A stretch of DNA of 64,000 bases. It comes from Pedomonas mirosovicensis (GTDB taxonomy: Bacteria; Pseudomonadota; Alphaproteobacteria; Sphingomonadales; Sphingomonadaceae). The stretch's first letter is position 1; every line of letters begins with the position of its first letter. The notes below the pieces were generated by a model. The model was not told the DNA's origin. It was given only the letters and a program-made list of their open reading frames with translations, and did no database searches. The translations under genes were made by a program, and so were the position numbers. The DNA is taken from the NCBI RefSeq assembly GCF_022569295.1, contig NZ_JAKFIA010000001.1:821001-885000 (forward strand), read 5' to 3'. This document shows, one piece after another, positions 23,124-34,479 of the stretch.

Positions 23124-25232
23124 TTATTCGGCCGCGACCGCGTGGGGAGCGGCGTTGGCGATCTCATCTTCTGCGAGCGGCTCGTCTTCGACCATGGCCG
23201 TTTCGCCGCCGATTGCCGTCGATTGTTCGACCGCCTCAACAGATTCGTTGCTCACGGTGGGCTCGACATTCGACGCGCCCCGATCGGCGGTGCGCAACGG
23301 TTCGGGCAACCAGCCGGTATCGGCGAGCAGCGTCTGCGCTTCCGCTGCCATGTCGCCCTTCTTGAGATGCTCGATCCGATCGGCGGCGCGCTGCCCCTTC
23401 GCCTGGGAAACCGCCTGAAGGATGCGAGACTTCGTCACCCTTCCGAGGAAGTTGTCCACGGTCGGCTTCCACCCGGCCGCCGCCATGTCGAGGTCGACCG
23501 CGTGCGCCAGCCGGTCGGCATGGGCGGCAGAACGGGGCCGCCGGTTCCAGGGCTCGTACACGGCGTTCACCGAAAGGCTGACGATGTGGGCGAACAGGCC
23601 CGCCTGGCTGTCGCCGTCCCATTCCCGCAGCGCGTCCCAGAGATCGGCCGATTCCTTGGGAAGCGCCTTCGACCAGCTTTCGTGCCGCACGCGGATCGCC
23701 TCCGCCGACACGCTGTCGTTGAGCCCCGGCGCCTGCGTCCCGAAGCTGACGCTCTTCAGGTCGAGTTCGAGGCAGCTATCCGAGCCGTAGTGGTAGAAGG
23801 CCTTTAGCGTCAGGACGTGCAAGGCTGCGACGAAGGCAACGTCCGGTCGCTCGCCGAGCGCATTGCGCAGGCCGAGCGTCCGGTGCGAGGTCAGCTCGGT
23901 CATCAGGCGGTCGGAGATGGGTGAGAGACCCTCGTCCTCCTCCGGCTCGGCGTCTGGCTCCGCCGTCATGACAGCCTCGTCGCCTTCATAGCCGGCGGCC
24001 ACTGCGCGTTCATCGTCACCGTCCGTGTCCGGCTCGGACGCAGGTTCGACCGACAATTCATCTTCCGGGCGGACATAGCCGCGCTCGACGCGAAGCTGGC
24101 CATCAGCGCCAATGCTGACGAAAGCGCCGGCGCGCGCGATCTCGGCCGCGTCGAACACCGCGGGACGATTGTCGAAGCCCTCGATCAGCGTCTCCAGCTC
24201 CGACAGGCGCTCATCCACCTCGTCCGGCAGTTCGTCGGCGTCTTGGTATTCCTCGGACAGCCGATCGAACTCGGCCTGGAGCGCATCGCGGCTTGCGGCC
24301 TCTTCGGTAGTCAGCAGTACCGTCTCGCCGCGAAGCTGGCGGAGACCGAAGGCGTGGCCATAGGCGAAGTCGGGTGCGACCTCGATCCACTTCCAGCCTT
24401 CGGCAGCGATCGCCTCGGCGTCCGACTTCAGCTTGTCGGCGACCATCTGGTCGATCAGCGCCACGTCCTGTAGCCAGCCGCCATCGTCGCCCTGGAACAG
24501 GTCGCGCTGCACTGTGCCACCAGCCGCCACATAGGCGTCGAGGCCGACGAACTGCGCCCGCTTGTCGGAGGCGCGGACCGCGCCCTCGGTCAGCATGCGC
24601 CGGATGACGTAGGGCTGCTTGTCGTAGGAGGCCTTCAGCCGCTCGAATGCCTGCTCCTGACGTTCATGGTCGCCGGAGACGGTGAAGGCCATGAGCTGGT
24701 CGAGCGTCATGCCGTCCTCGGCATAAACGTCGAGCAAGGCCGGGGAGACCGCGGCCAGCTTCAGGCGCTGTTTCACCACGTTGACCGAGACAAAGAAAGC
24801 GGCCGCGATCTCTTCCTCGGATTGGCCCTTCTCGCGCAGCGCCAGGAAGGCCCGGAACTGGTCCAGGGGGTGCAACGGCGCACGCTGGACGTTCTCGGCG
24901 AGCGAGTCCTCCTCGGCGATGCCGCTGTCGCGGACGATGCACGGCACGGGCGCGGTCTTGGCGAGGCGCTTCCGCTTCACGAGCAGTTCCAGGGCCCGGT
25001 AGCGCCGGCCGCCAGCCGGGATCTCGAACATGCCGGTTTCGACACCGGCCTGGTCGACGACAGGGCGCACGCTGAGGCCCTGCAGGAGACCGCGGCGAGC
25101 GATGTCCTCGGCCAGCTCCTCGATCGAGACGCCGGCCTTCACGCGCCGGACGTTGGACTGGGAGAGCAAGAGCTTGTTGAAGGGGATGTCGCGCGAGGGC
25201 GAGAGGGTGATTTTTTGAACGGCAGTCGCCAT
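23124..25232 (-). CDS. ParB/RepB/Spo0J-family protein, long plasmid type
   Basis: A 702-residue protein. Residues 10-200 form a ParB N-terminal nuclease/CTPase-like and HTH unit: IPFNKLLLSQSNVRRVKAGV, FEIPAGGRRYRALELLVK, AENVQRAPLHPLDQFRAF and the HTH IAAAFFVSVNVVKQRLKLA. The remaining 500 residues are specific to the long alphaproteobacterial plasmid version and include an acidic region near residues 400-430. Genuine partition ParBs are much shorter, so this one may act in gene control or DNA processing. The start codon follows a hairpin whose 3' arm abuts the ribosome-binding site. Confidence 0.9.
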   Translation of the reverse strand: MATAVQKITLSPSRDIPFNKLLLSQSNVRRVKAGVSIEELAEDIARRGLLQGLSVRPVVDQAGVETGMFEIPAGGRRYRALELLVKRKRLAKTAPVPCIVRDSGIAEEDSLAENVQRAPLHPLDQFRAFLALREKGQSEEEIAAAFFVSVNVVKQRLKLAAVSPALLDVYAEDGMTLDQLMAFTVSGDHERQEQAFERLKASYDKQPYVIRRMLTEGAVRASDKRAQFVGLDAYVAAGGTVQRDLFQGDDGGWLQDVALIDQMVADKLKSDAEAIAAEGWKWIEVAPDFAYGHAFGLRQLRGETVLLTTEEAASRDALQAEFDRLSEEYQDADELPDEVDERLSELETLIEGFDNRPAVFDAAEIARAGAFVSIGADGQLRVERGYVRPEDELSVEPASEPDTDGDDERAVAAGYEGDEAVMTAEPDAEPEEDEGLSPISDRLMTELTSHRTLGLRNALGERPDVAFVAALHVLTLKAFYHYGSDSCLELDLKSVSFGTQAPGLNDSVSAEAIRVRHESWSKALPKESADLWDALREWDGDSQAGLFAHIVSLSVNAVYEPWNRRPRSAAHADRLAHAVDLDMAAAGWKPTVDNFLGRVTKSRILQAVSQAKGQRAADRIEHLKKGDMAAEAQTLLADTGWLPEPLRTADRGASNVEPTVSNESVEAVEQSTAIGGETAMVEDEPLAEDEIANAAPHAVAAE

Positions 25233-25406
25233 GGGATGATACTCCGTGACGGGCGGCCGAAAGACTCTCTCTCGACCTCCAACCCGTCACGAAGCGCAGC
25301 GCCGCCCTCTCACTCTGGAGGGCAGCGCCGCAGAACCGACGATAAGAGAAGGCGGAAAGGCACGAAGCCGGAGATACGCAAAGCCGTGTCTCCGGCTTTC
25401 CGGGGG
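25233..25406 (-). promoter_or_regulatory. Structured 5' leader of the ParB-family gene (copy A)
   Basis: Read on the minus strand, a first hairpin uses the arms at 25364-25374 and 25389-25399 (GAAGCCGGAGA type). An AGAGTGAGAGGGC stretch follows, then a second stem from CGTGACGGG (25283-25291) pairing perfectly with CCCGTCACG (25245-25253), 13 bases before the start codon. The ribosome-binding GGAG begins at the foot of this stem. The spacer upstream of the DUF932 gene has the same order of elements. A translational control element is likely; the ligand or partner is unknown. Confidence 0.65.
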
Positions 25407-26603
25407 TCAGGCCGCCCGGTCGAGCAGCTTCTTGGCCCGTGCCTCCAGGTCGAGCCGCGCGTCCTGCTGGCTCTTATCGCGCGCGACCGCGGTGATGCCC
25501 TGCACGAAGTCGAACACGCTTTCCGGCTTGCGGCCCTCCTCGGCGAGCACCGTCTCGATGATCTTTGCCGTCTCGGTCTTCGAGAACCCGCGCTTGCGCA
25601 GGAACTCGCTGCGGTCATCGTCGGTGCGCGCCACGATCTTCTCGCGCGCGGCCTTGATGCCGTTGACGAAGGGCAGCGGTGAGGAATTGGCGAAGCGGGT
25701 CAACGCCGGCGCCGCCTCATGGGCGAAACGCGAAGCGGCGTATTTCGAGTGGCGGATGGTGATCTCCTCGAAATCCTCGACGCCCCAGAGATTTCGGTTC
25801 TGGCAAACAGCGCGGAGATAGAAGCTCGCCATGCCAAGCGTCTTCGCGCCCACCTCGGAATTCCAGCAATAGAAGCCGCGGAAATAGAGGTCGGGCGAGC
25901 CGTCGGGCAGTCGGCCGGCCTCGATAGGGTTGAGGTCGTCGACCAGGAAGAGGAAGACGTCCCGATCCGAGGCATAGAGGGTGGTCGTGTCCTGGGTGAT
26001 GTCGACGCGCGGATTGTAGACCCCCGTCGACCAGTCGAGGACGCCTGGCACCTTCCAGCGGGTGTCGCCGGTGCCATTGCCGGCAATGCGCTGCACGGCT
26101 GCGACCAGCTCGTGGTCGAAGATGCGGCCATAGTCGGGCCCGGTGACGGCGCGCAGCTCGACGCGGCCATCTTCGATCTCGAGGGTCTTCACCTGCTCGG
26201 CGCGATGGGAGGTCAGCCCATATTGCAGGTTGATTCCGGCGAGCGGCGCCGGAAGCCGGCGCAGATAGGCCGTCGGCGCGCCAACCAAACCGGCGAGCTG
26301 GCCGAAACTCCAATGGGTGGGCGCGATCGGCGCATCCGACCCGGGCAGCATTAGCGCCAGGCGCTCGGCATCGTCGCGGCTGGCGTCTACCCGGATCGCC
26401 GCGCTCTCGACGGTTCTGGTGCGGCTCCGCTCGGTCCGGCCCCGGACGGCGGCATAGAGGTCCGACAGGGATAGGTAGCGCTCGTCGGCCGGCCGCGAGA
26501 ACCATTCCGATGATACGCGGCCGATCCGCTCGCCGCGATTCACATCCACTTTGTAGCCGCCAGCGCGGTCGCGAGCGGCGTCCAGAATCTCCACATGCGT
26601 CAT
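25407..26603 (-). CDS. DUF932 protein (plasmid/phage type)
   Basis: A 398-residue DUF932 protein with the usual landmarks: IAPTHWSFGQLAGLVGAPTA, LRRLPAPLAGINLQYGL, LRAVTGPDYGRIFDHELVAA, DRDVFLFLVDD and YFRGFYCWNSEVGAKTLGMA. DUF932 proteins are common on plasmids and phages; no enzymatic role is established. It starts ATG with GGAGA upstream, at the foot of a leader hairpin shared with the ParB-family gene. The pair ParB-like/DUF932 is typical of large alphaproteobacterial plasmids. Confidence 0.92.
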   Translation of the reverse strand: MTHVEILDAARDRAGGYKVDVNRGERIGRVSSEWFSRPADERYLSLSDLYAAVRGRTERSRTRTVESAAIRVDASRDDAERLALMLPGSDAPIAPTHWSFGQLAGLVGAPTAYLRRLPAPLAGINLQYGLTSHRAEQVKTLEIEDGRVELRAVTGPDYGRIFDHELVAAVQRIAGNGTGDTRWKVPGVLDWSTGVYNPRVDITQDTTTLYASDRDVFLFLVDDLNPIEAGRLPDGSPDLYFRGFYCWNSEVGAKTLGMASFYLRAVCQNRNLWGVEDFEEITIRHSKYAASRFAHEAAPALTRFANSSPLPFVNGIKAAREKIVARTDDDRSEFLRKRGFSKTETAKIIETVLAEEGRKPESVFDFVQGITAVARDKSQQDARLDLEARAKKLLDRAA

Positions 26604-26811
26604 GGCTAGTCTCCACGACGGGCGCCGGAGGCCTCTCCTCCAACCCTCAACCCGTCACGGAAAACCCGTCCGCACTCTCACTCTCGGGGGCGTTGCGGGG
26701 TCTCCCCGCAGAAGTGGGCGGCCGAGACCTAGGACACGGCCGCAGGGGAAGGCTTTCCGCAAAGACGTGAAGCCGGAAATCAGGATGTCAGGATCGGCGA
26801 CGTTCCGGCTT
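26604..26811 (-). promoter_or_regulatory. Structured 5' leader of the DUF932 gene (copy B)
   Basis: Homologous in layout to the leader at 25233-25406. A GAAGCCGGAA/TTCCGGCTTTC hairpin (26769-26778 with 26803-26813) overlaps the preceding stop codon. It is followed by GAGAGTGAGAG, then CGTGACGGG (26651-26659) pairing with CCCGTCGTG (26614-26622). The two changed positions become G-U pairs, so the stem would hold in RNA but be imperfect in DNA. The GGAGA ribosome-binding site touches the stem, 5 bases from the start codon region. Confidence 0.62.
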
Positions 26812-27321
26812 TCAGGCCCAATCTTCCGGAGGCTCGTCGTGCGGATCGAGTTCAGAAAAGTCGGTCAGCGTGTCGCATCGGATGCAATGGTACATCTGCG
26901 AAGCTTCCTGGAAGTGCATGCCGCACAGGCATCCGCAAAAGGGGCAGCACTCGTCGATTTCCAGATCGGCCCATTCCCATACGCCGAGATATTCGGGGAT
27001 GGCGTCGCGGTCATATCCGACGATTTGGAAGGCGTCGGCGTTCTTGGCGACGAACCCGTCACGGCCCGCGCGCTGGAGAATGGGGAGAATGTCAGCCGGT
27101 TCGATGGCGAACCACTCACCGCGGACCTGAGTCGCTCCGAAGCGCTGGTGCAGGTGCCGCTCGAGCTGGAACGGATCGATCGTGTCGATCCACCCGAGCA
27201 GGCGCAGTTCCAGAGGATTGCCGGTCTGGAGGTTGCGCTTGCGCGCATCGATGTTCTTCGCCACGCCGATCTTGATCGGGGAGCATCCATTTTCGTCTTC
27301 ACCGATGAAATAGACCGGCAT
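26812..27321 (-). CDS. GIY-YIG-like (T5orf172/MUG113-type) protein with zinc-binding-like tail
   Basis: A 169-residue protein. Residues 1-80 read PVYFIGEDENGCSPIKIGVA, KNIDARKRNLQTGNPLELRL and FQLERHLHQRFGATQVRGEW, the pattern of T5orf172/MUG113 domains, a branch of the GIY-YIG endonuclease fold common in phages and mobile elements. The C-terminal part has a four-cysteine arrangement (CCPFCGCLCGMHF, then YHCIRCDTL) that could bind zinc. It may be a nuclease or an inactive DNA-binding derivative. It overlaps the leader of the DUF932 gene at its stop codon. Confidence 0.72.
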   Translation of the reverse strand: MPVYFIGEDENGCSPIKIGVAKNIDARKRNLQTGNPLELRLLGWIDTIDPFQLERHLHQRFGATQVRGEWFAIEPADILPILQRAGRDGFVAKNADAFQIVGYDRDAIPEYLGVWEWADLEIDECCPFCGCLCGMHFQEASQMYHCIRCDTLTDFSELDPHDEPPEDWA

Positions 27322-27346
27322 GCCTTCAGTTTCCTAGCGACAACGA

Positions 27347-28291
27347 TTAACGCAGATCGGCCAGAAGGGTCATAACGAAGTCGCGGAATGACGAGCCGGT
27401 GTAATCGAGCCGGCGGCCGTCCTGGCGCATGAGCGAAATGAGAAGGCAGGCGGTGAAGACCCAGAACGGTGACGCATCAGGCAAATTGTAGCCGCCGATC
27501 ATCGCTTCGAGCCGGTCTCCGATCGGCGGATAATCGTCGTTTCCCCAGTGCGCGTGGCGCGGCGTCATTGCATGAACCGTGACGGCCGCAAGCGCGATCC
27601 CCATCGCGCGTTTCTGTTCGACCTGCGCATAGGAGTAGCCATTGGACGCGGCGTAGGCGGCCACCCCGGTCGTCATGAACTCTCGTGCCCATGTGTCGCA
27701 GGCTATCTCTTCTTCGGCCGCTGCCTGCCGATCTTCCTCAGGTGTATGCTCAGCGGCTTCTAAGGCGCGGGCCTGTACGTGCTTAAACTCGTGGAGGAGG
27801 GCGAAGGCCACTGCGAGGGCGACCAGATCGAAAACCGCCATATCCTGGCCATTACCGAAGCTCTCCCGCTCGGCAGTCGGCTGCGGTATGTCTTCGGGCC
27901 AATCAATCTCGGATGTCTTGGCGGCGTTGAGGAGAGATTGGGCGCTCGCAATGCGGTGTCTGTAATCCTGCTCGAATTGACCGCGCTCCTCGTCGATGTT
28001 GAGCGCCGCTTCCAGCGTGACGCCCGTCGCCGTGGCAAGTGTGAGGGCCGGCGCGTAGACTTCGATCGCGCGCCATGCGCTGAAGCCGAGCAGCCAAAAG
28101 AAGTGGATCGTCTTAGTATCGAATTTGATGCGCTTGCTGGTGGCGTTCATTGTCGAGCCGGGGGCGCTTGGTGCGACCTCGACACCGTGCCCGTGTTCAA
28201 GCCACAAGCGGGAGAGATCGTCGGCACGCTCGGGCACCGCTCCACGCAGGAGATGGAGGACGATAGTCCGGTCGGTTGGCTCAGCCGTCAT
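27347..28291 (-). CDS. Lit-like phage-exclusion metalloprotease (peptidase U49 family)
   Basis: A 314-residue protein with the zinc-protease motif HExxH in ALLHEFKHVQA (His167-His171) and a third-ligand candidate in EEEIACDTWA (Glu193-195). The surrounding hydrophobic segments (residues 150-170 and about 280-292) and length agree with the Lit/U49 family. Escherichia coli Lit, encoded by a defective prophage, cleaves EF-Tu when it meets the T4 Gol peptide and stops translation. This protein is therefore a probable abortive-infection effector. The first 45 residues are not typical of the family; a later start (Met48) is possible. It lies 51 bases downstream of the next gene, on the same strand. 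Confidence 0.75.
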   Translation of the reverse strand: MTAEPTDRTIVLHLLRGAVPERADDLSRLWLEHGHGVEVAPSAPGSTMNATSKRIKFDTKTIHFFWLLGFSAWRAIEVYAPALTLATATGVTLEAALNIDEERGQFEQDYRHRIASAQSLLNAAKTSEIDWPEDIPQPTAERESFGNGQDMAVFDLVALAVAFALLHEFKHVQARALEAAEHTPEEDRQAAAEEEIACDTWAREFMTTGVAAYAASNGYSYAQVEQKRAMGIALAAVTVHAMTPRHAHWGNDDYPPIGDRLEAMIGGYNLPDASPFWVFTACLLISLMRQDGRRLDYTGSSFRDFVMTLLADLR

Positions 28292-28342
28292 GGTTTACGT
28301 TTCTCCTGTTTTTGGTGGGCTGCGGCGTAGATGACGTGTTGG

Positions 28343-29758
28343 TCATGACGCCCCGCCATCGTCAGGCGCGCCGCTCATCCGCCCAGCTTCGCCGGCCATA
28401 TGCAGACGGGTGACCGAGGAGAGGACCGAGTTCGCCCAGATGGTGCTGCACTCGATGTCGCCGTCGCGTTCGAACCAATGGGTCGCGCCCGGGATGAGAT
28501 CGAACGGGATGGGGTGGGTGGCCAGCGGATTGTGGAATACCTCCAACTCCTGGCACCAGGCTTCGCCCCAAGGCCAGAGCGCCTGATATTCGTCGCTGGT
28601 GACCGACAGCTTGAAGTCGATCGGCTCCAGCGCACCCGGGGTTCGGTCGAAGAGGATGCCGCTCCGGATCATCGTCAGCCCGGGAGGGCGCCAACCGGCA
28701 AGGAAGCCCATCCGGTTGAACTTGGCGAGCGTCGCCGCATTGCTGAAGATGACGGCGGACAGATGGGCGAAATCGGGATCGCGGAAGAGCCCCGCCGGGA
28801 TGCCATGCTTGCCCGTCAGGTTGGCGATCGGTGTCCCGACCGCGCGCCGTTCCGCGCCTTCTCCTTCGATATCGGCGCGCAGTCCGTAGAGGTATGTGGG
28901 CAACGCCTCGCGGCTCCAGACCATCGAACCGGACTCGTGGAAGTCCGCCAATGCGAGAGCGAAGGATTGGCCCTTCACGTGGTCCATCTCATGATAGTTG
29001 CGCTGGAGCTTGCCGCGCAGCGTTTTGGCGAAGCGCTCGGCCGGGTCTCCGGTCAGGCGTTCGTTGCGATCCTCCGGCGCATGCACCCAGTCGCCGATCC
29101 CTCCTGCACGTGGGGTCTCGGAGTTGGCCGTCACAGCCTCGATCCAGCACGTGTCGCCGTCCTTCTCGATGAAGAAGTCGGGCGAGACATGATCTTGCCG
29201 AACGCTCAGGCCCTGCTCGCGAAAGCAGGCGAGAAGGTAGAGTTCGAACAGCCGGGAGGCGAAGTTGCTGGTCTGAAAATCCGGGACGAAGTTGGCGTCG
29301 GGATTGGGAAGCGCGAGATAGCATTCGCCGACCGCCATGAGCGCTGGCAGATGGCTGATCGTGGTCGTCAGCAGATCGAATTCCGGCGATGTCCCGCGCG
29401 CTCCGAGTTTCACCAAAAGCGGGCGGCGCCTGGCCCCCGGCGGCAAGGGCTCCGGCGGATCGCCGGCGCGCATGGCAATGCTGAGGCGGTCGAGCGCGGC
29501 CTCGGGGTTGGAATAGGGGCCGTTTTCATCGACCTTGACCCAGCGGTGATCGACACGCCGGCGTAAGGCAAGGCTGGAGAAGATTCCTTGCTCCGGATCA
29601 ACGAGGATGCAGCCGCTCGTGCTGCCTCGCCCTGCCTGATAGGCGCTGAAGATACGGGCGGGGTCGAAATTGGGACCGCGTTCGAGCGACAGCGCATAGA
29701 GCTCGAACTGGCGCTGGCTGATCGGCGTGATCAGTCGCGGCTCATCGGTTGAGGCCAT
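28343..29758 (-). CDS. Unknown protein with nuclease-like core, paralogue of the neighbouring gene
   Basis: A 471-residue protein without a recognised family. The centre contains ASRLFELYLLACFREQG, then VSPDFFIEKDGDTCWIEAVT. The pattern Glu - about 25 residues - P-D - acidic - WIEA resembles the core of PD-(D/E)xK nucleases, although the expected lysine after the last glutamate is absent. The C-terminal half includes VFHNPLATHPIPFDLI, which recurs in the next gene (29810-30736). The start MASTDEPRL was chosen for a GAGG box 5 bases upstream. Its place between a Lit-like protease and two unknown genes in a defence island suggests a role in phage defence; this is inference. Confidence 0.75.
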   Translation of the reverse strand: MASTDEPRLITPISQRQFELYALSLERGPNFDPARIFSAYQAGRGSTSGCILVDPEQGIFSSLALRRRVDHRWVKVDENGPYSNPEAALDRLSIAMRAGDPPEPLPPGARRRPLLVKLGARGTSPEFDLLTTTISHLPALMAVGECYLALPNPDANFVPDFQTSNFASRLFELYLLACFREQGLSVRQDHVSPDFFIEKDGDTCWIEAVTANSETPRAGGIGDWVHAPEDRNERLTGDPAERFAKTLRGKLQRNYHEMDHVKGQSFALALADFHESGSMVWSREALPTYLYGLRADIEGEGAERRAVGTPIANLTGKHGIPAGLFRDPDFAHLSAVIFSNAATLAKFNRMGFLAGWRPPGLTMIRSGILFDRTPGALEPIDFKLSVTSDEYQALWPWGEAWCQELEVFHNPLATHPIPFDLIPGATHWFERDGDIECSTIWANSVLSSVTRLHMAGEAGRMSGAPDDGGAS

Positions 29759-29809
29759 GACCGGCCTCATGATCCCGCAGCCGGCCGATGCGTGCATGCG
29801 ACTCCATCA

Positions 29810-30736
29810 TTATGACGCCTCCGCCGCGGCCGCCGGAGCCAGAATATCGTTGGACTCCCATCCGTCGCCCTGCCGGACCGTCACGAACTCGCGATCCCAG
29901 ACGCCCCAGTTCGTGGGCAATGGAACCTGCGCCAAGGGATTGTGGACATAGGTGATCGGCCGGACCTGGCGCGAGAGATTGCCAAGGCCGACCCGCGACC
30001 AGATCACGCCCGAGATGTCGGCGAAGCGTTCGTCGAGGAAGGCCGTGCGCGGGATCGGATTGCGGTCGCGCTGGATCAACGGTGCGGCATGGAAGCCTTC
30101 TTCGAGAACATCGCCGGTGTCACGGTCGATGGTGATGTAAGCGTCGCCGATCGGGAACAGCGTCGTCATGATGAGCGGCAAGGGCTGTTCGGCGACATAG
30201 ACGCCGAAGCGGCTGGCGCTGATCGCGATGATGCGGGTGTCTTCCGGCGCGATCACCCCCTGTTCGATGTAGCGGGTGATCTTCTGCGCCTTGGTCCAGA
30301 ACGCGCTGGAGGTCCGAAGCTGTGCCTGGCGAATGGGTGCGGCGGCAAGGCCGCCGCCCTCGTTGATCGGCACGGGGCGCACGATCTGGTCAGGACCCGG
30401 CGCGCCTTCGTCGGGGGAGATGGCCTCGATCCAGATGCGGCGACCTCCTTCGAGGACGCACAGGTCCGGCTGGCCGCATTCGCGCTGACGGTCGACGACG
30501 GGCAACAACGTCCGCCCCGCCTCAAGCAGCGTGCAGCCCAGATACATTTCCCAGAAGCGCCCATCGACGTCGCGCGCGAAGCCCTGGCGGAAGTCGGGAT
30601 CAGCATAGGGCTCGTAGCGCGCCCACATCTCCTGCAGCAGGGCGCGAAGCTGCTGCTCGATCGGAAACTCCGCGATTTTCAGGTTCTCGAAGCCAAGATC
30701 GAGATTGGCGCCGTCAACGTCGAAAAGGTCGCTCAT
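29810..30736 (-). CDS. Unknown protein with nuclease-like core, shorter paralogue
   Basis: A 308-residue protein. It shares its layout with the preceding-in-window gene: FWEMYLGCTLLEAG, then GQPDLCVLEGGRRIWIEAIS, then a C-terminal ITYVHNPLAQVPLPTNW. The acidic/PD/WIEA arrangement is the same, so the two are diverged duplicates. A PD-(D/E)xK-like fold is plausible but the catalytic lysine is not evident. GAGGTGAG lies 6 bases before the ATG, and only 12 bases separate it from the gene upstream, so the cluster is one operon. Function unknown. Confidence 0.78.
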   Translation of the reverse strand: MSDLFDVDGANLDLGFENLKIAEFPIEQQLRALLQEMWARYEPYADPDFRQGFARDVDGRFWEMYLGCTLLEAGRTLLPVVDRQRECGQPDLCVLEGGRRIWIEAISPDEGAPGPDQIVRPVPINEGGGLAAAPIRQAQLRTSSAFWTKAQKITRYIEQGVIAPEDTRIIAISASRFGVYVAEQPLPLIMTTLFPIGDAYITIDRDTGDVLEEGFHAAPLIQRDRNPIPRTAFLDERFADISGVIWSRVGLGNLSRQVRPITYVHNPLAQVPLPTNWGVWDREFVTVRQGDGWESNDILAPAAAAEAS

Positions 30737-30748
30737 CGTCGGCTCACC

Positions 30749-31303
30749 TCATGCCCGGCGCAGCATCCGCGGGATCTGCACCCGGTGATAGCCGTGAGCG
30801 TGGACCTGCTGGCGGAGCTGTTTGGTGTCGTGGACGCCGAAAGCCACGGCGGCCTTCAGCGGGCTGGCGAAGGTCGCGTAGAAGGTCCAGCGTGCGCCGG
30901 CAGGAAGCGTCGGGTTCTGCCGCCGGTCGGTGATGACGACATCGCGCGGGTCGCTGCTGTTGCGGAAGGCGTGAAAGGTGAACCAGTCGGGCCGGCGATA
31001 GCGCGCGGCCTTGCTGAAGGGCACGGACTGGACCTTTACGTCGGTCTGGTCGAGCACCCAATCGCGTTGCTCCAGAATCTGCCGCACCATGTGGCCGACC
31101 ATCTGCTTGACCCGCTCGGCCAGAACCTCTTCGCGAAACTCGGCGAGAAGTTCTTCCTCGATGCCTTCGACCGCGGGCTTGCTCAATTGAGACGCGGTTT
31201 CGAGGCGGGCGACGTTGTCGTCGCGCGTGAGGAACACCCAGATGCGCTGCCCAAGCTCGGACGCATAGAGCGACGCAAATTTCTCGGGACTGTAGGCAAA
31301 CAT
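30749..31303 (-). CDS. Unknown protein, first gene of the minus-strand defence cluster
   Basis: A 184-residue protein, no recognised family. An early helix-rich region (LLAEFREEVLAERVKQMVGH) precedes VLDQTDVKVQSVPFSKAARY, RRPDWFTFHAFR and a C-terminal basic stretch ending RVQIPRMLRRA. It could be a DNA- or RNA-binding partner of the two nuclease-like proteins downstream. The start MFAYSPEKF follows a near-perfect ribosome-binding site (AAAGGAGG) and was preferred over one eight codons upstream. A promoter with TTGACA, 17-base spacing and ATATTT lies just upstream. Confidence 0.78.
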   Translation of the reverse strand: MFAYSPEKFASLYASELGQRIWVFLTRDDNVARLETASQLSKPAVEGIEEELLAEFREEVLAERVKQMVGHMVRQILEQRDWVLDQTDVKVQSVPFSKAARYRRPDWFTFHAFRNSSDPRDVVITDRRQNPTLPAGARWTFYATFASPLKAAVAFGVHDTKQLRQQVHAHGYHRVQIPRMLRRA

Positions 31304-31315
31304 GACAGGGCCTCC

Positions 31316-31354
31316 TTTACCGGGCAAATATGGACGGTTATAAGCCTATGTCAA
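31316..31354. promoter_or_regulatory. Overlapping divergent promoters between the two halves of the cluster
   Basis: Minus strand: TTGACA (31349-31354), 17-base spacer, ATATTT (31326-31331), serving the 30749-31303 gene. Plus strand: TTTACC (31316-31321), 17-base spacer, TATAAG (31339-31344), serving the 31398-34479 operon. The two promoters occupy the same 39 bases, so polymerase or a regulator at one must exclude the other. Confidence 0.5.
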
Positions 31355-31397
31355 TGGCGGGCGACCAGCGCCTGCTGATTCCGCCGGGGAGGCTGGA

Positions 31398-32033
31398 TTG
31401 GATTTCGAAGATCTCGTGACGGCCCTGGCGCCACCGCCAAACCGGGTGGGCAAATCGGACGGGCCTGACGAACATCATCTCTATGAGGGTGCGGTCATGC
31501 TTGCTTACGCGATGCATCTGCTCCGCACCCAACGCGCGCGGGACGTCCGTATCCATCCCGATGGCGAACACGGAAAGCAGTTCGACTTCGCGGCCTGGCT
31601 CGGGCGGCGCGACTTCGGGAAGGTCGCCAGCCTCGGCAGCACGACCTACGGCGGCGTTTATCGGAATCCCGCTGGTCAGACGATCACCGTCCATCCCAAG
31701 TCGGGCCTCAGCGACGTCGTCGCTGAGGTCGGCAGTCACGTCATTTCGGCTGAGTGCAAGGGCGGAATCATCAACACGCGGCATCCCGGTCAGGTCTCGC
31801 GGCTCTATCGCGGTCTGTGCGAGACGGTCGGGCTGCTGATGGCGACGCCGGCGCAGGGCCGCCAGGTCGCCGTGGTCCCGCTGACCGAAAGCACGCGGCG
31901 CCTGGCCGAGCGGCTTGCGCCGCGCTGTGCGTTGGCCGGCATTGAGATCGCTCTCGTCGGCAGCCGCGGCGAGGTCATGGACGTGCAACCGGCGGAGACC
32001 GCCGAACTGACGGCGGAAAGGATCGACGGATGA
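31398..32033 (+). CDS. PD-(D/E)xK-like (restriction-endonuclease-fold) protein
   Basis: A 211-residue protein. Its centre reads LSDVVAEVGSHVISAECKGG: Asp106, then Glu119-Cys-Lys121, the D...ExK arrangement of PD-(D/E)xK nucleases, with a supporting glutamate near residue 30 (HHLYEGAVM). Translation appears to start at TTG: a GGGGAGG site lies 5 bases upstream and no in-frame ATG or GTG is better. It is the first gene of a tight operon; the next gene (TIR) overlaps its stop by 4 bases. Likely a nuclease effector or DNA-sensing component of a defence system. Confidence 0.72.
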   Translation: MDFEDLVTALAPPPNRVGKSDGPDEHHLYEGAVMLAYAMHLLRTQRARDVRIHPDGEHGKQFDFAAWLGRRDFGKVASLGSTTYGGVYRNPAGQTITVHPKSGLSDVVAEVGSHVISAECKGGIINTRHPGQVSRLYRGLCETVGLLMATPAQGRQVAVVPLTESTRRLAERLAPRCALAGIEIALVGSRGEVMDVQPAETAELTAERIDG

Positions 32034-33142
32034 GAAGGGTATTGACGATCGGACTGAACTACACGGGCGACGCGATCGAAGGAGTCGAGATCGATAATCT
32101 CGGCCTTTGCCGGCCCGAGGTGGATCGCGACCGGGCCGCCTATCCGCTCTACGAGTATGACACGATCATCATCAACCCGCAGAGCTACACGCATTTCCTG
32201 TTTGGCAAGGCCGGCGAGTTTTCGAACGAACCCTATGAGCTGGGCAAGCTAAAGGGCGTGAACGACCGCTATGACCTCGACTCCGCCTTCGATAGCGAAG
32301 ATCGGCGCAAGGAAATGGAGGCGGCGATTGCAGACGGGGCAACCGTCGTCTGGTGTCTGTCAGAACCGAAGCGGGTGAACTTCTTCGGTTATCGCGAGAC
32401 CCATCTCGGCTATGTCGCGCCGAAGGTCGCGGGCTTCGTGAAGCGATCGGAGCTGCTCGTTAAGAAGGGACGCCGGATGGGTGCGATCGACCCCGACAGC
32501 CCCTTCACGCGCTATTTTGAGGTTTTGTCGCGAACCGGCGGGTGGACGCTGTGCCTCTCCGATCCCGGCGAAAGTTACGCGTCGATCGCCGCGACGCCCG
32601 AGGGCTACAGCCTCGGCGGCCACGTGACGCTTGGAACCACGACGGGCTGGCTGCTGACCCCGCCGACATCTGATGAAGCTCAGAACCAGCTCGTGCGCGA
32701 CAGCCTCGCGCTGGAGAAGGCCGATCCGGTGCACGAAAAATATCACGGCATCTTCCTCAGCCACACCGGCGTCGACAAACCGTTCGTGCGCCAGTTGCGC
32801 AAGGATCTGCTCGCCCATGGGGTGGAGCATGTGTGGCTGGACGAGGCCGAAATCGACATCGGCGACTCGCTAATCGCCAAGATCGAAGAGGGCATGAAGC
32901 TCAGCCGCTACATCGCCGTCGTCCTATCGAAGAAGTCGATTGGCGCGCCTTGGGTAAAGAAGGAACTTGATGTGGCCATGAACCGCGAGATCGCCAGCGG
33001 CGAGGTGGTCGTGCTGCCGCTGCTCTATGAAGATTGCGAGCTGCCGGAGTTCCTGAAGGGCAAGCTCTACGCCGATTTTTCGAAGCCCGAGGAGTATGAG
33101 GCGGTTCTCGGCAAGCTTCTGCGCCGGCTCCGGATTTCCTGA
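32030..33142 (+). CDS. TIR-domain protein with unrecognised N-terminal sensor-like domain
   Basis: A 370-residue protein. Residues 238-365 form a TIR domain: HGIFLSHTGVDKPFVRQLRK, VWLDEAEIDIGDSLIAKIEE, IAVVLSKKSIGAPWVKKELD and VVVLPLLYEDCELPEF. The catalytic-type glutamate (WxxxE, Glu312) is present, so NAD cleavage is plausible. Bacterial TIR proteins commonly kill infected cells by NAD depletion or make signal nucleotides. The first 235 residues (VLTIGLNYTGDAIEGVEIDN, EYDTIIINPQSYTHFLFG, GATVVWCLSEP) look like an alpha/beta fold I cannot assign. It overlaps the gene before by 4 bases and shares one base with the HEPN gene after it (TGATG). Confidence 0.85.
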   Translation: MRRVLTIGLNYTGDAIEGVEIDNLGLCRPEVDRDRAAYPLYEYDTIIINPQSYTHFLFGKAGEFSNEPYELGKLKGVNDRYDLDSAFDSEDRRKEMEAAIADGATVVWCLSEPKRVNFFGYRETHLGYVAPKVAGFVKRSELLVKKGRRMGAIDPDSPFTRYFEVLSRTGGWTLCLSDPGESYASIAATPEGYSLGGHVTLGTTTGWLLTPPTSDEAQNQLVRDSLALEKADPVHEKYHGIFLSHTGVDKPFVRQLRKDLLAHGVEHVWLDEAEIDIGDSLIAKIEEGMKLSRYIAVVLSKKSIGAPWVKKELDVAMNREIASGEVVVLPLLYEDCELPEFLKGKLYADFSKPEEYEAVLGKLLRRLRIS

Positions 33143-34479
33143 TGAGCGAAGCTGCGACGGGGCCGAGCAGTGCGATGATCTCCGCGATGTCGGACCTGTG
33201 GCGGCTGCATCCGCCGGGACCCGACAACATCCTCGCGCATCCGGCCTTCGAGCGACTGCGCGACGCCTGTCGTGATGGCTATCCGAACGCCGGCAAGAAG
33301 GGACCAGCTTTCGCGCTCTCGACCGCTTTGCGGGCTCTTGGCCTTCCCTGTGGCCTGCAAAAGGAGACGCTTCATCTTTCCTTGCCGGTAGAGGAGGCGG
33401 CAAAGGCGCTCGATGCTGCGATGCGGGCGACCCACGCCAAACGCGCCCACCTGGTGCCGCTCGATCTGGCCGCTGACCTGCCGTCGATCGCGTTCGGCCC
33501 GGCGAAGCTAGGCCGGCTGACCGCGGACGAACTGCTAGCCCTCGTCGATCATGCCAGGCTGAAGCGGCTCTATCTGCGGCAGGAATTCGATGCCGCGCGT
33601 TTTTCTGAGTTCCACTGGCTGGTTGTCGAGGAGACGGTAGCGCTCGAGCACGAACCCGAGGCACGCGCTGTCCCGGTACTGTTCATGGACCTCAGCCGGG
33701 ACCTGGGGCAGATCGAACCCCATAAGGGACGATTTCCTGGCGCGGTCGAAGAGGCGCTGTTCTTCCTGCTGCTGGCGCCGTGGGAAAGCTGGTCGGCCAT
33801 GGCGGAGGTTGACTGGCGCGGCTTCCGGGTCCCGTGGGTCTACACCGTCGACAGCGACATCTTCGTTCGCCCTAACACGCCCCCGTCGCCCGATACGCTG
33901 AGCTGGGAGGATCGGATCTACGACGACGGCTACGGCGGGACCTATGAGGAGGAACGACCGGTCGAGCTGCGCTTCGAAGACGACGTCGCAACCGAATTGC
34001 CGGTCTGGGACCAGAGCCGCTGGGCGATCGTCGAGCAGGCGAAGCAATCGGTTCTGTTCGAAACGCCGATCACGCACTTCCTGGTCCGCGCGTTCCTGGC
34101 GGAAGGCGTCGACGAATTCCTGGCGCATATCACGACGATTGAAGCGGCGCTGGGCCTGCGCGCCGACTATCAGAAGAGCTTCCGGGTGGCGCCCGACCGG
34201 CACAAGAGATTGCGCGCCACCGATAAGATGCGAGGCCGTGTCGCCGGTCTGCTGGGCGGTCGAAGCTATGCCGATCAATACGAGCGGCTGTTCGACCTGC
34301 GCAGCGCGTTCCTGCACGGCCGGGCGATGACGGCCATTTCGACCAAGGAACGGGTCATGGCCCGCTCGCTGGCTCGGCAGGTTGTGGAAGCGCTGATCCT
34401 CACCACCCAGGCCGGGCCTATCTCCTCGCGCGAGGACTTTCTCGACGGCCTGCTCGATAAGGGTGCACCTCTCCTCTAG
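33142..34479 (+). CDS. HEPN-domain protein (ApeA-like C-terminus)
   Basis: A 445-residue protein. The C-terminal region ends in ERLFDLRSAFLHGRAM, with Arg387-x4-His392 matching the HEPN RNase motif, and the preceding helix THFLVRAFLAEGVDEFLAHI supports a HEPN helical bundle of the ApeA/RiboL-PSP-like kind. The N-terminal 300 residues are unrecognised and may sense the trigger. It is the third gene of the PD-(D/E)xK - TIR - HEPN operon and is translationally coupled to the TIR gene. RNA cleavage as effector activity is inference from the motif. Confidence 0.75.
   Translation: MSEAATGPSSAMISAMSDLWRLHPPGPDNILAHPAFERLRDACRDGYPNAGKKGPAFALSTALRALGLPCGLQKETLHLSLPVEEAAKALDAAMRATHAKRAHLVPLDLAADLPSIAFGPAKLGRLTADELLALVDHARLKRLYLRQEFDAARFSEFHWLVVEETVALEHEPEARAVPVLFMDLSRDLGQIEPHKGRFPGAVEEALFFLLLAPWESWSAMAEVDWRGFRVPWVYTVDSDIFVRPNTPPSPDTLSWEDRIYDDGYGGTYEEERPVELRFEDDVATELPVWDQSRWAIVEQAKQSVLFETPITHFLVRAFLAEGVDEFLAHITTIEAALGLRADYQKSFRVAPDRHKRLRATDKMRGRVAGLLGGRSYADQYERLFDLRSAFLHGRAMTAISTKERVMARSLARQVVEALILTTQAGPISSREDFLDGLLDKGAPLL

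Follow-up and report, generated by a model that had tools for sequence, protein, structure and literature searches.

The window, by which we mean the whole 64,000-nt stretch analysed here, comes from a 3.63-Mb genome in two contigs. Its minus strand carries a DUF932-family gene and, downstream of it, a ParB-like gene, each preceded by a structured leader that includes its Shine-Dalgarno (SD) sequence and start codon (Table 1). An AlphaFold model of the DUF932 protein had a mean pLDDT of 39 and was left unused. The coordinates, elements and minus-strand orientation that an earlier sequence-only reading had given for the two leaders were confirmed as a whole, the decisive evidence being comparative. 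The hairpins with GCCGGA arms that it had described are indeed found in both spacers; the outer GCCGGA hairpin lies outside the conserved core, being absent from many relatives of the ParB spacer. The copy directly 3' of the DUF932 stop codon is kept with changes in close relatives and missing in others, and is possibly a terminator or processing hairpin. A further hairpin (CTGCGGGGAGACCCCGCA) lies at 26694-26711, on the 5' side of the AGAG box in the DUF932 leader, and the pattern CTTCTGCGGGG..CCCCGCA was found upstream of 24 of 81 DUF932 leaders, nearly always immediately 5' of an AGAG sequence. Adjoining the gene pair, positions 26812-34479 hold a likely defence-gene cluster with a Lit-like peptidase U49 (27347-28291), a PD-T7-1-like gene (28343-29797; E 5.5e-85) with a weaker relative (29810-30736), and a TIR-domain protein with a ThsB-like match (32030-33142).

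Table 1 Genes, leaders and leader elements in the window, and sites of the 172-aa family in other sampled loci.
Feature	Position	Strand	Sequence or remark
ParB-like gene (putatively controlled gene 1), 702 aa	23124..25232	-	PF02195, E 1.2e-6
ParB-gene leader RNA element (P0, AGAG box, P1, P2, SD, start codon)	25230..25331	-	
ParB leader P1 3' arm	25242..25253	-	CCCGUCACGGAG (CCCGTCACGGAG), with SD GGAG at 25242-25245
ParB leader P2 hairpin, AGAG-type loop	25255..25277	-	GGUCGAGAGAGAGUCUUUCGGCC; both-side changes at 7/7 pairs
ParB leader P1 5' arm	25283..25294	-	CUUCGUGACGGG (CTTCGTGACGGG); CUUC pairs with SD
ParB leader P0 hairpin	25296..25331	-	GCGGCGCUGCCCUC (25318-25331) / GAGGGCGGCGCUGC (25296-25309)
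ParB leader AGAG box	25307..25316	-	AGAGUGAGAG (AGAGTGAGAG)
GCCGGA hairpin, directly 3' of DUF932 stop codon	25365..25399	-	arms 25389-25399 and 25365-25374
DUF932-family gene (putatively controlled gene 2), 398 aa	25407..26603	-	PF06067, E 0.0025, under the curated cutoff; relatives annotated DUF932
DUF932-gene leader RNA element (AGAG box, P1, P2, SD, start codon)	26601..26684	-	
DUF932 leader P1 3' arm	26611..26622	-	CCCGUCGUGGAG (CCCGTCGTGGAG), with SD GGAG at 26611-26614
DUF932 leader P2 hairpin, AGAGG pentaloop	26624..26644	-	GUUGGAGG-AGAGG-CCUCCGGC; both-side changes at 6/7 pairs
DUF932 leader P1 5' arm	26651..26664	-	UUUUCCGUGACGGG (TTTTCCGTGACGGG); UUUCC pairs with GGAGA
DUF932 leader AGAG box	26675..26684	-	AGAGUGAGAG (AGAGTGAGAG)
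GCCGGA-arm hairpin, upstream of DUF932 leader core	26770..26811	-	arms 26803-26811 and 26770-26779
172-aa family sites (other loci)	L086:21810-22402, L112:12575, L115:271, L129:12174, L131:21375		

The two leaders present the same elements in the same order, namely the box AGAGUGAGAG, the hairpin P1 (GUGACGGG/CCCGUC) and P2 with an AGAG-type loop. ParB leaders, and only these, also have the hairpin P0, with the AGAG box within its loop and 3' arm and with pairing in 94.9% of cells over 61 ParB sequences. The box had been proposed for both leaders and is present in both, but the extra 5' G assigned to it occurs in the DUF932 copy only (the ParB copy reads CAGAGTGAGAG). An AGAG box alone is not rare, with 1.85 expected in the window, while the combination GTGACGGG N15-40 CCCGTC (0.05 expected) is confined, within the window, to these two leaders. 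Folding of the ParB leader gave z = -5.9 to -6.0 and that of the DUF932 core z = -2.5; the whole 221-nt DUF932 leader was unexceptional (z = -1.2). The stem that had been placed against the ribosome-binding site was confirmed, but it does not merely abut it: since the 3' arm as described ends on the first G of GGAG and pairing extends through GGAG, the SD lies within the stem. From first base to first base, GGAG and ATG are 13 (ParB) and 11 (DUF932) nucleotides apart, and the changes in the second copy are G-C to G-U and U-A to U-G, both as originally claimed.

Comparison with relatives was based on 80 loci with DUF932 relatives taken from genome contigs, which cover many alphaproteobacterial orders and, being the 80 most similar, are biased to close relatives. 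A fixed rule, applied with the window included, detected P1 and its terminal GGAG in 81/81 DUF932 leaders and 79/80 ParB leaders, and the sole ParB exception (locus L020) was still recovered by the covariance model described below. Homologues without the pairing, which had been named as grounds for dismissing the claim, were looked for; the pairing is near universal and the claim was not refuted. The AGAG box AGAGNNAGAG was present in 68/79 ParB leaders (78/79 in a relaxed form) and in 66/81 DUF932 leaders (77/81 in a relaxed form). Standard pairs filled 93.7% of pair cells over 64 DUF932 leaders and 96.3% over 61 ParB leaders, and structures slid by 1-3 columns were 30-54% (DUF932) and 40-48% (ParB) paired. 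Cells with changes on both sides of a pair numbered 74 for DUF932 versus 18.2 +/- 4.3 after shuffling, and 52 for ParB versus 11.7 +/- 2.9 (0/500 shuffles in each case). Covariation was found mostly within P2, with one pair occurring as GC 24, AU 22 and GU 16 times. Parsimony on the protein trees gave at least 40 (DUF932) and at least 30 (ParB) both-sided changes between Watson-Crick pair types, counts that assume that leaders follow the protein tree and that leader transfer between elements could inflate. In most relatives, the P1 3' arm of the DUF932 leader (CCCGUCAUGGAG) contains an AUG that overlaps the SD (CAUGGAG) and is out of frame with the gene where read; it is a possible decoy or upstream start.

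A covariance model trained on DUF932 leaders only (R1) recovered the ParB leader of the window (25227-25316; 75.9 bits, E 1.7e-16) and ParB leaders throughout the sampled loci, which bears out the proposed homology of the two leaders. The DUF932 leader of the window, whose sequence was in the training set, matched at 26598-26684 with 97.7 bits, and these two leaders are the only R1 copies in their own genome. Matches were obtained in 20/289 sampled genomes of the class and in 25/299 genomes sampled from the phylum, all of the latter listed as the same class or family. The genes downstream encode ParB, DUF932, ArdC (PF08401 and PF18818) and a 172-aa protein. Among plasmid DNA, the DUF932 leader of the window was most closely matched by an ArdC leader of the Ketogulonicigenium vulgare plasmid pYP1 (93.8% over 81 nt), while BLASTP found no similarity between the DUF932 and ArdC proteins; a near-identical leader before unrelated proteins indicates that the same leader serves unrelated genes. 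The leader element is also carried by pNL1 of Novosphingobium aromaticivorans. Taken across relatives, comparison at the sequence level shows homologous leaders before a common gene set.

The 172-aa family has no Pfam match and is annotated as RadC-like in some plasmids; its genes have a shortened leader with a GAGNNAGAG box and a UUUGACGG stem. In locus L099 (2743, minus strand), a 150-aa protein without a Pfam match lies behind an R1-type leader and adjoins a divergent ParB gene that carries one as well. Genes for strawberry-notch helicase/methylase and DUF6878 proteins have a related leader, consisting of an AGAG box, a hairpin and a GAGAGAG loop with the SD outside P1. As R1 scores at these leaders are marginal (E about 0.01-0.5), they are related by motif (two AGAG motifs), with homology unproven. 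Individual folds of strawberry-notch leaders share the hairpin in most cases, and their joint alignment is poor. Across ten annotated plasmid loci, the strict AGAG box was found 82-99 nt upstream of 22/31 genes of the DUF932, ParB, strawberry-notch and DUF6878 classes. Some 100 other genes from these loci, a partial list entered by hand from tables, had no strict box within 160 nt; the 172-aa genes, having the shortened box, were not scored as hits. Genes for SSB (0/8), toprim (0/9) and DUF2493 (0/7) proteins in the same ten loci had no strict box. The leader was present at 20/21 ParB relatives whose identity reached 53%, and at 1/9 of the more distant ones. The only complete DUF932 relative without a leader (78% identity; genome G093) has a ParB gene likewise without one, as if the leaders of both genes had been lost, or never gained, together; one genome with DUF932 fragments only (G034) was excluded from this judgement.

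The conserved structure belongs to RNA and to the coding strand. G.U cells outnumbered A.C cells by 203:22 in DUF932 and 345:17 in ParB leaders, and the sense strand of P1-P2 folded more stably than its antisense in 159/160 leaders with RNA parameters and in 157/160 with DNA parameters. The earlier preference for RNA over DNA was upheld by this G.U excess and by the better folding of the sense strand, which together indicate that the element acts as sense RNA. The covarying coding-strand helices that characterise RNA cis-regulatory leaders are present, so that RNA structure and action from the coding strand are likewise shown by sequence comparison. A double-stranded operator should show no strand asymmetry and a template-strand hairpin should show the opposite one, and both are disfavoured by this result.

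Occlusion of the ribosome-binding site by the hairpin is predicted from folding. When the folded segment spanned 110 nt upstream of GGAG and 60 nt counted from it, the mean unpaired probability of GGAG was predicted to be 0.165 for DUF932 and 0.057 for ParB leaders, compared to 0.378 and 0.269, respectively, when the upstream part only was shuffled. At 37 °C, the predicted unpaired probability of the SD in the window is <0.01 for the ParB leader and about 0.03 or less for the DUF932 leader. Full occlusion of the SD is not universal, as the A of GGAG is unpaired in 20/64 DUF932 leaders, and the SD falls within the conserved helix in leaders of the DUF932/ParB type but not in those of the strawberry-notch type. 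Control by temperature, one of the options originally raised, was disfavoured, because predicted SD pairing hardly shifts between 20 and 48 °C: the unpaired probability of GGAG goes from 0.135 to 0.170 (DUF932) and from 0.067 to 0.082 (ParB).

We consider it roughly 60% probable that these leaders form an undescribed family of cis-acting RNAs that sequester the SD and coordinate establishment genes of conjugative elements through a shared trans-acting factor. The element itself is real and apparently new. Its carriers would be alphaproteobacterial conjugative or integrative elements, and its architecture comprises a conserved purine box (AGAGNNAGAG), then hairpin P1 (GUGACGGG/CCCGUC) and P2, which closes an AGAGG-type pentaloop, the P1 3' arm containing or touching the GGAG SD in DUF932, ParB and ArdC leaders. 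By default, the hairpin would hold translation down by hiding the SD. The AGAG box and the loop motif may be read by a trans-acting factor common to these leaders, most probably an RNA-binding protein that the element itself encodes, and this factor would shift the balance. We infer translational regulation, the existence and nature of this factor, the sign of its effect and a role at entry. A trans-acting partner is favoured over a passive hairpin since the AGAG box and loop are kept as sequence while the P2 pairs vary freely. By co-occurrence, ParB, which is most regularly found behind the leader and would itself be controlled, comes first among candidate autoregulators. The SD lies outside P1 in strawberry-notch leaders, and the mechanism may therefore differ between classes.

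Of the earlier interpretation, homologous RNA leaders with a stem on the SD were retained and temperature was not, and the scope is wider than one gene pair. With the leader also found before ArdC and the 172-aa gene, and related ones before DUF6878 and strawberry-notch genes, joint control would cover a larger establishment set. The translation of DUF932, ParB, the ArdC antirestriction protein, the 172-aa gene, DUF6878 and the strawberry-notch methylase/helicase could thus be set jointly. This gene set suggests a role while the mobile element becomes established in a new cell, and the leader, placed before several unrelated mobile-element genes that include an anti-restriction gene, probably coordinates settling there. 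ArdC of R388 is reported to be required by the recipient cell in conjugation (PMC7213743). The polyvalent proteins of conjugative elements repeatedly contain ArdC, ParB-type and helicase domains (PMC5512222). A more specific and tentative version is an RNA-level regulon in which one element-encoded factor keeps the genes for establishment and antirestriction repressed once the host is settled, all of them being released together on entry into a factor-free cell, as a translational form of zygotic induction.

Two alternatives place the action in DNA. A transcription factor, for instance the ParB protein, that binds the element as an inverted repeat would account for the near-palindromic arms, and the adjacent gene codes for a DNA-binding protein of the ParB family; however, the variable P2 pairs, the G.U excess and the strand asymmetry fit RNA and not a fixed DNA site, and the arms are located on the SD, so that we regard a DNA operator as highly improbable. 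The Frpo hairpin is located on the strand serving as template. A hairpin in single-stranded DNA of the Frpo/ssi type, from which leading-region genes would be transcribed on the entering T-strand, is suggested by the ArdC, ParB and methylase/helicase set, which resembles the leading-region genes of conjugative plasmids, and by the multiple copies of Frpo elements before such genes (PMC11541004). Such a promoter would be expected to form its hairpin on the template strand, but the hairpin found favours the coding strand with G.U far above A.C, a comparison that assumes the T-strand to be the template here. A stem with the SD at 11-13 nt from the start codon also lies too near the gene behind it to be its promoter, and SSB genes, a classical position of Frpo, lack the box, making this explanation very unlikely.

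The remaining alternatives act at the RNA level. Opening or blocking of the leader by a base-pairing small RNA of CUCUC type would explain why the AGAG box and loop are kept as sequence, beyond structure, and CGCUCUC in many strawberry-notch leaders can pair with the loop GAGAGAGCG; but the window contains CTCTCTCTC only where it complements the ParB loop, and the CUCUC segment is not conserved in the strawberry-notch leaders of Rhodobacterales, and we think a small RNA unlikely. A pseudoknot between loop and CUCUC within strawberry-notch leaders was dropped as a candidate, as it is not conserved in Rhodobacterales. Binding of a small molecule by the conserved loops of a riboswitch would fit an SD-sequestering structure with conserved unpaired purines before several target genes. 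The targets, however, are mobile-element genes for DNA handling and antirestriction and not a metabolic pathway, and the core is a single simple hairpin with a linear box, without a multi-helix aptamer, and a riboswitch is rather improbable. P1/P2 are very stable and folding alone would lower translation, so that the hairpin could constitutively fix a low translation rate or shield the mRNA from decay with no trans-acting factor; we give this little weight because it leaves the sequence conservation of the AGAG box and loop across unrelated genes unexplained while P2 varies. An RNA thermometer would agree with an SD covered by a stem, but it was rejected in view of the near-flat predicted opening of GGAG, and we see next to no chance of it.

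Searches with Rfam 15 at the gathering score gave no matches in the window and five leader-bearing loci, and matches at E 5-10 included none of meaningful score overlapping the leader core. The radC motif (RF01754) had no match above cutoff, and none at the leaders, in six leader-bearing genomes. It is associated with DNA-handling genes such as radC. As a likewise candidate cis-regulatory RNA of Proteobacteria (RF01754; PMC2864571), it is comparable to the element described here, but its model misses these leaders. STAXI (RF01728, PMC2864571) keeps similar gene company, near genes for SSB, an antirestriction protein, integrase and topoisomerase, but differs in its tandem pseudoknots and occurrence in Enterobacteriales, these leaders being without an Rfam match. 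No description of such leaders before DUF932, ParB or ArdC genes was found in the open-access papers searched (including PMC11109978 and PMC6429828), a search whose scope excludes the 2017 motif catalogue (10.1093/nar/gkx699), of which Rfam 15 covers much, though not necessarily all.

Discussion of the early post-entry expression of conjugative elements has mostly concerned promoters, including single-stranded-DNA promoters, and a leader covering ribosome-binding sites in ArdC, ParB and DUF932 genes would add post-transcriptional control of establishment and anti-restriction. The shared leader also groups the poorly characterised DUF932, DUF6878 and 172-aa proteins with ArdC, which offers a handle on them, and as plasmids such as pNL1 carry it, direct testing is possible. 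SD-sequestering translational operators common to several genes are found in ribosomal-protein leaders and CsrA targets. These leaders resemble them in the SD-covering hairpin and in conserved unpaired purines suited to a protein, but CsrA targets typically present GGA in a loop and the AGAG motifs here are not that site. The Frpo/ssi elements (PMC11541004) are alike in being multi-copy hairpins before the establishment and anti-defence genes of conjugative plasmids, but whereas they provide a DNA promoter on the entering single strand, the leaders described here are coding-strand RNA over the SD.
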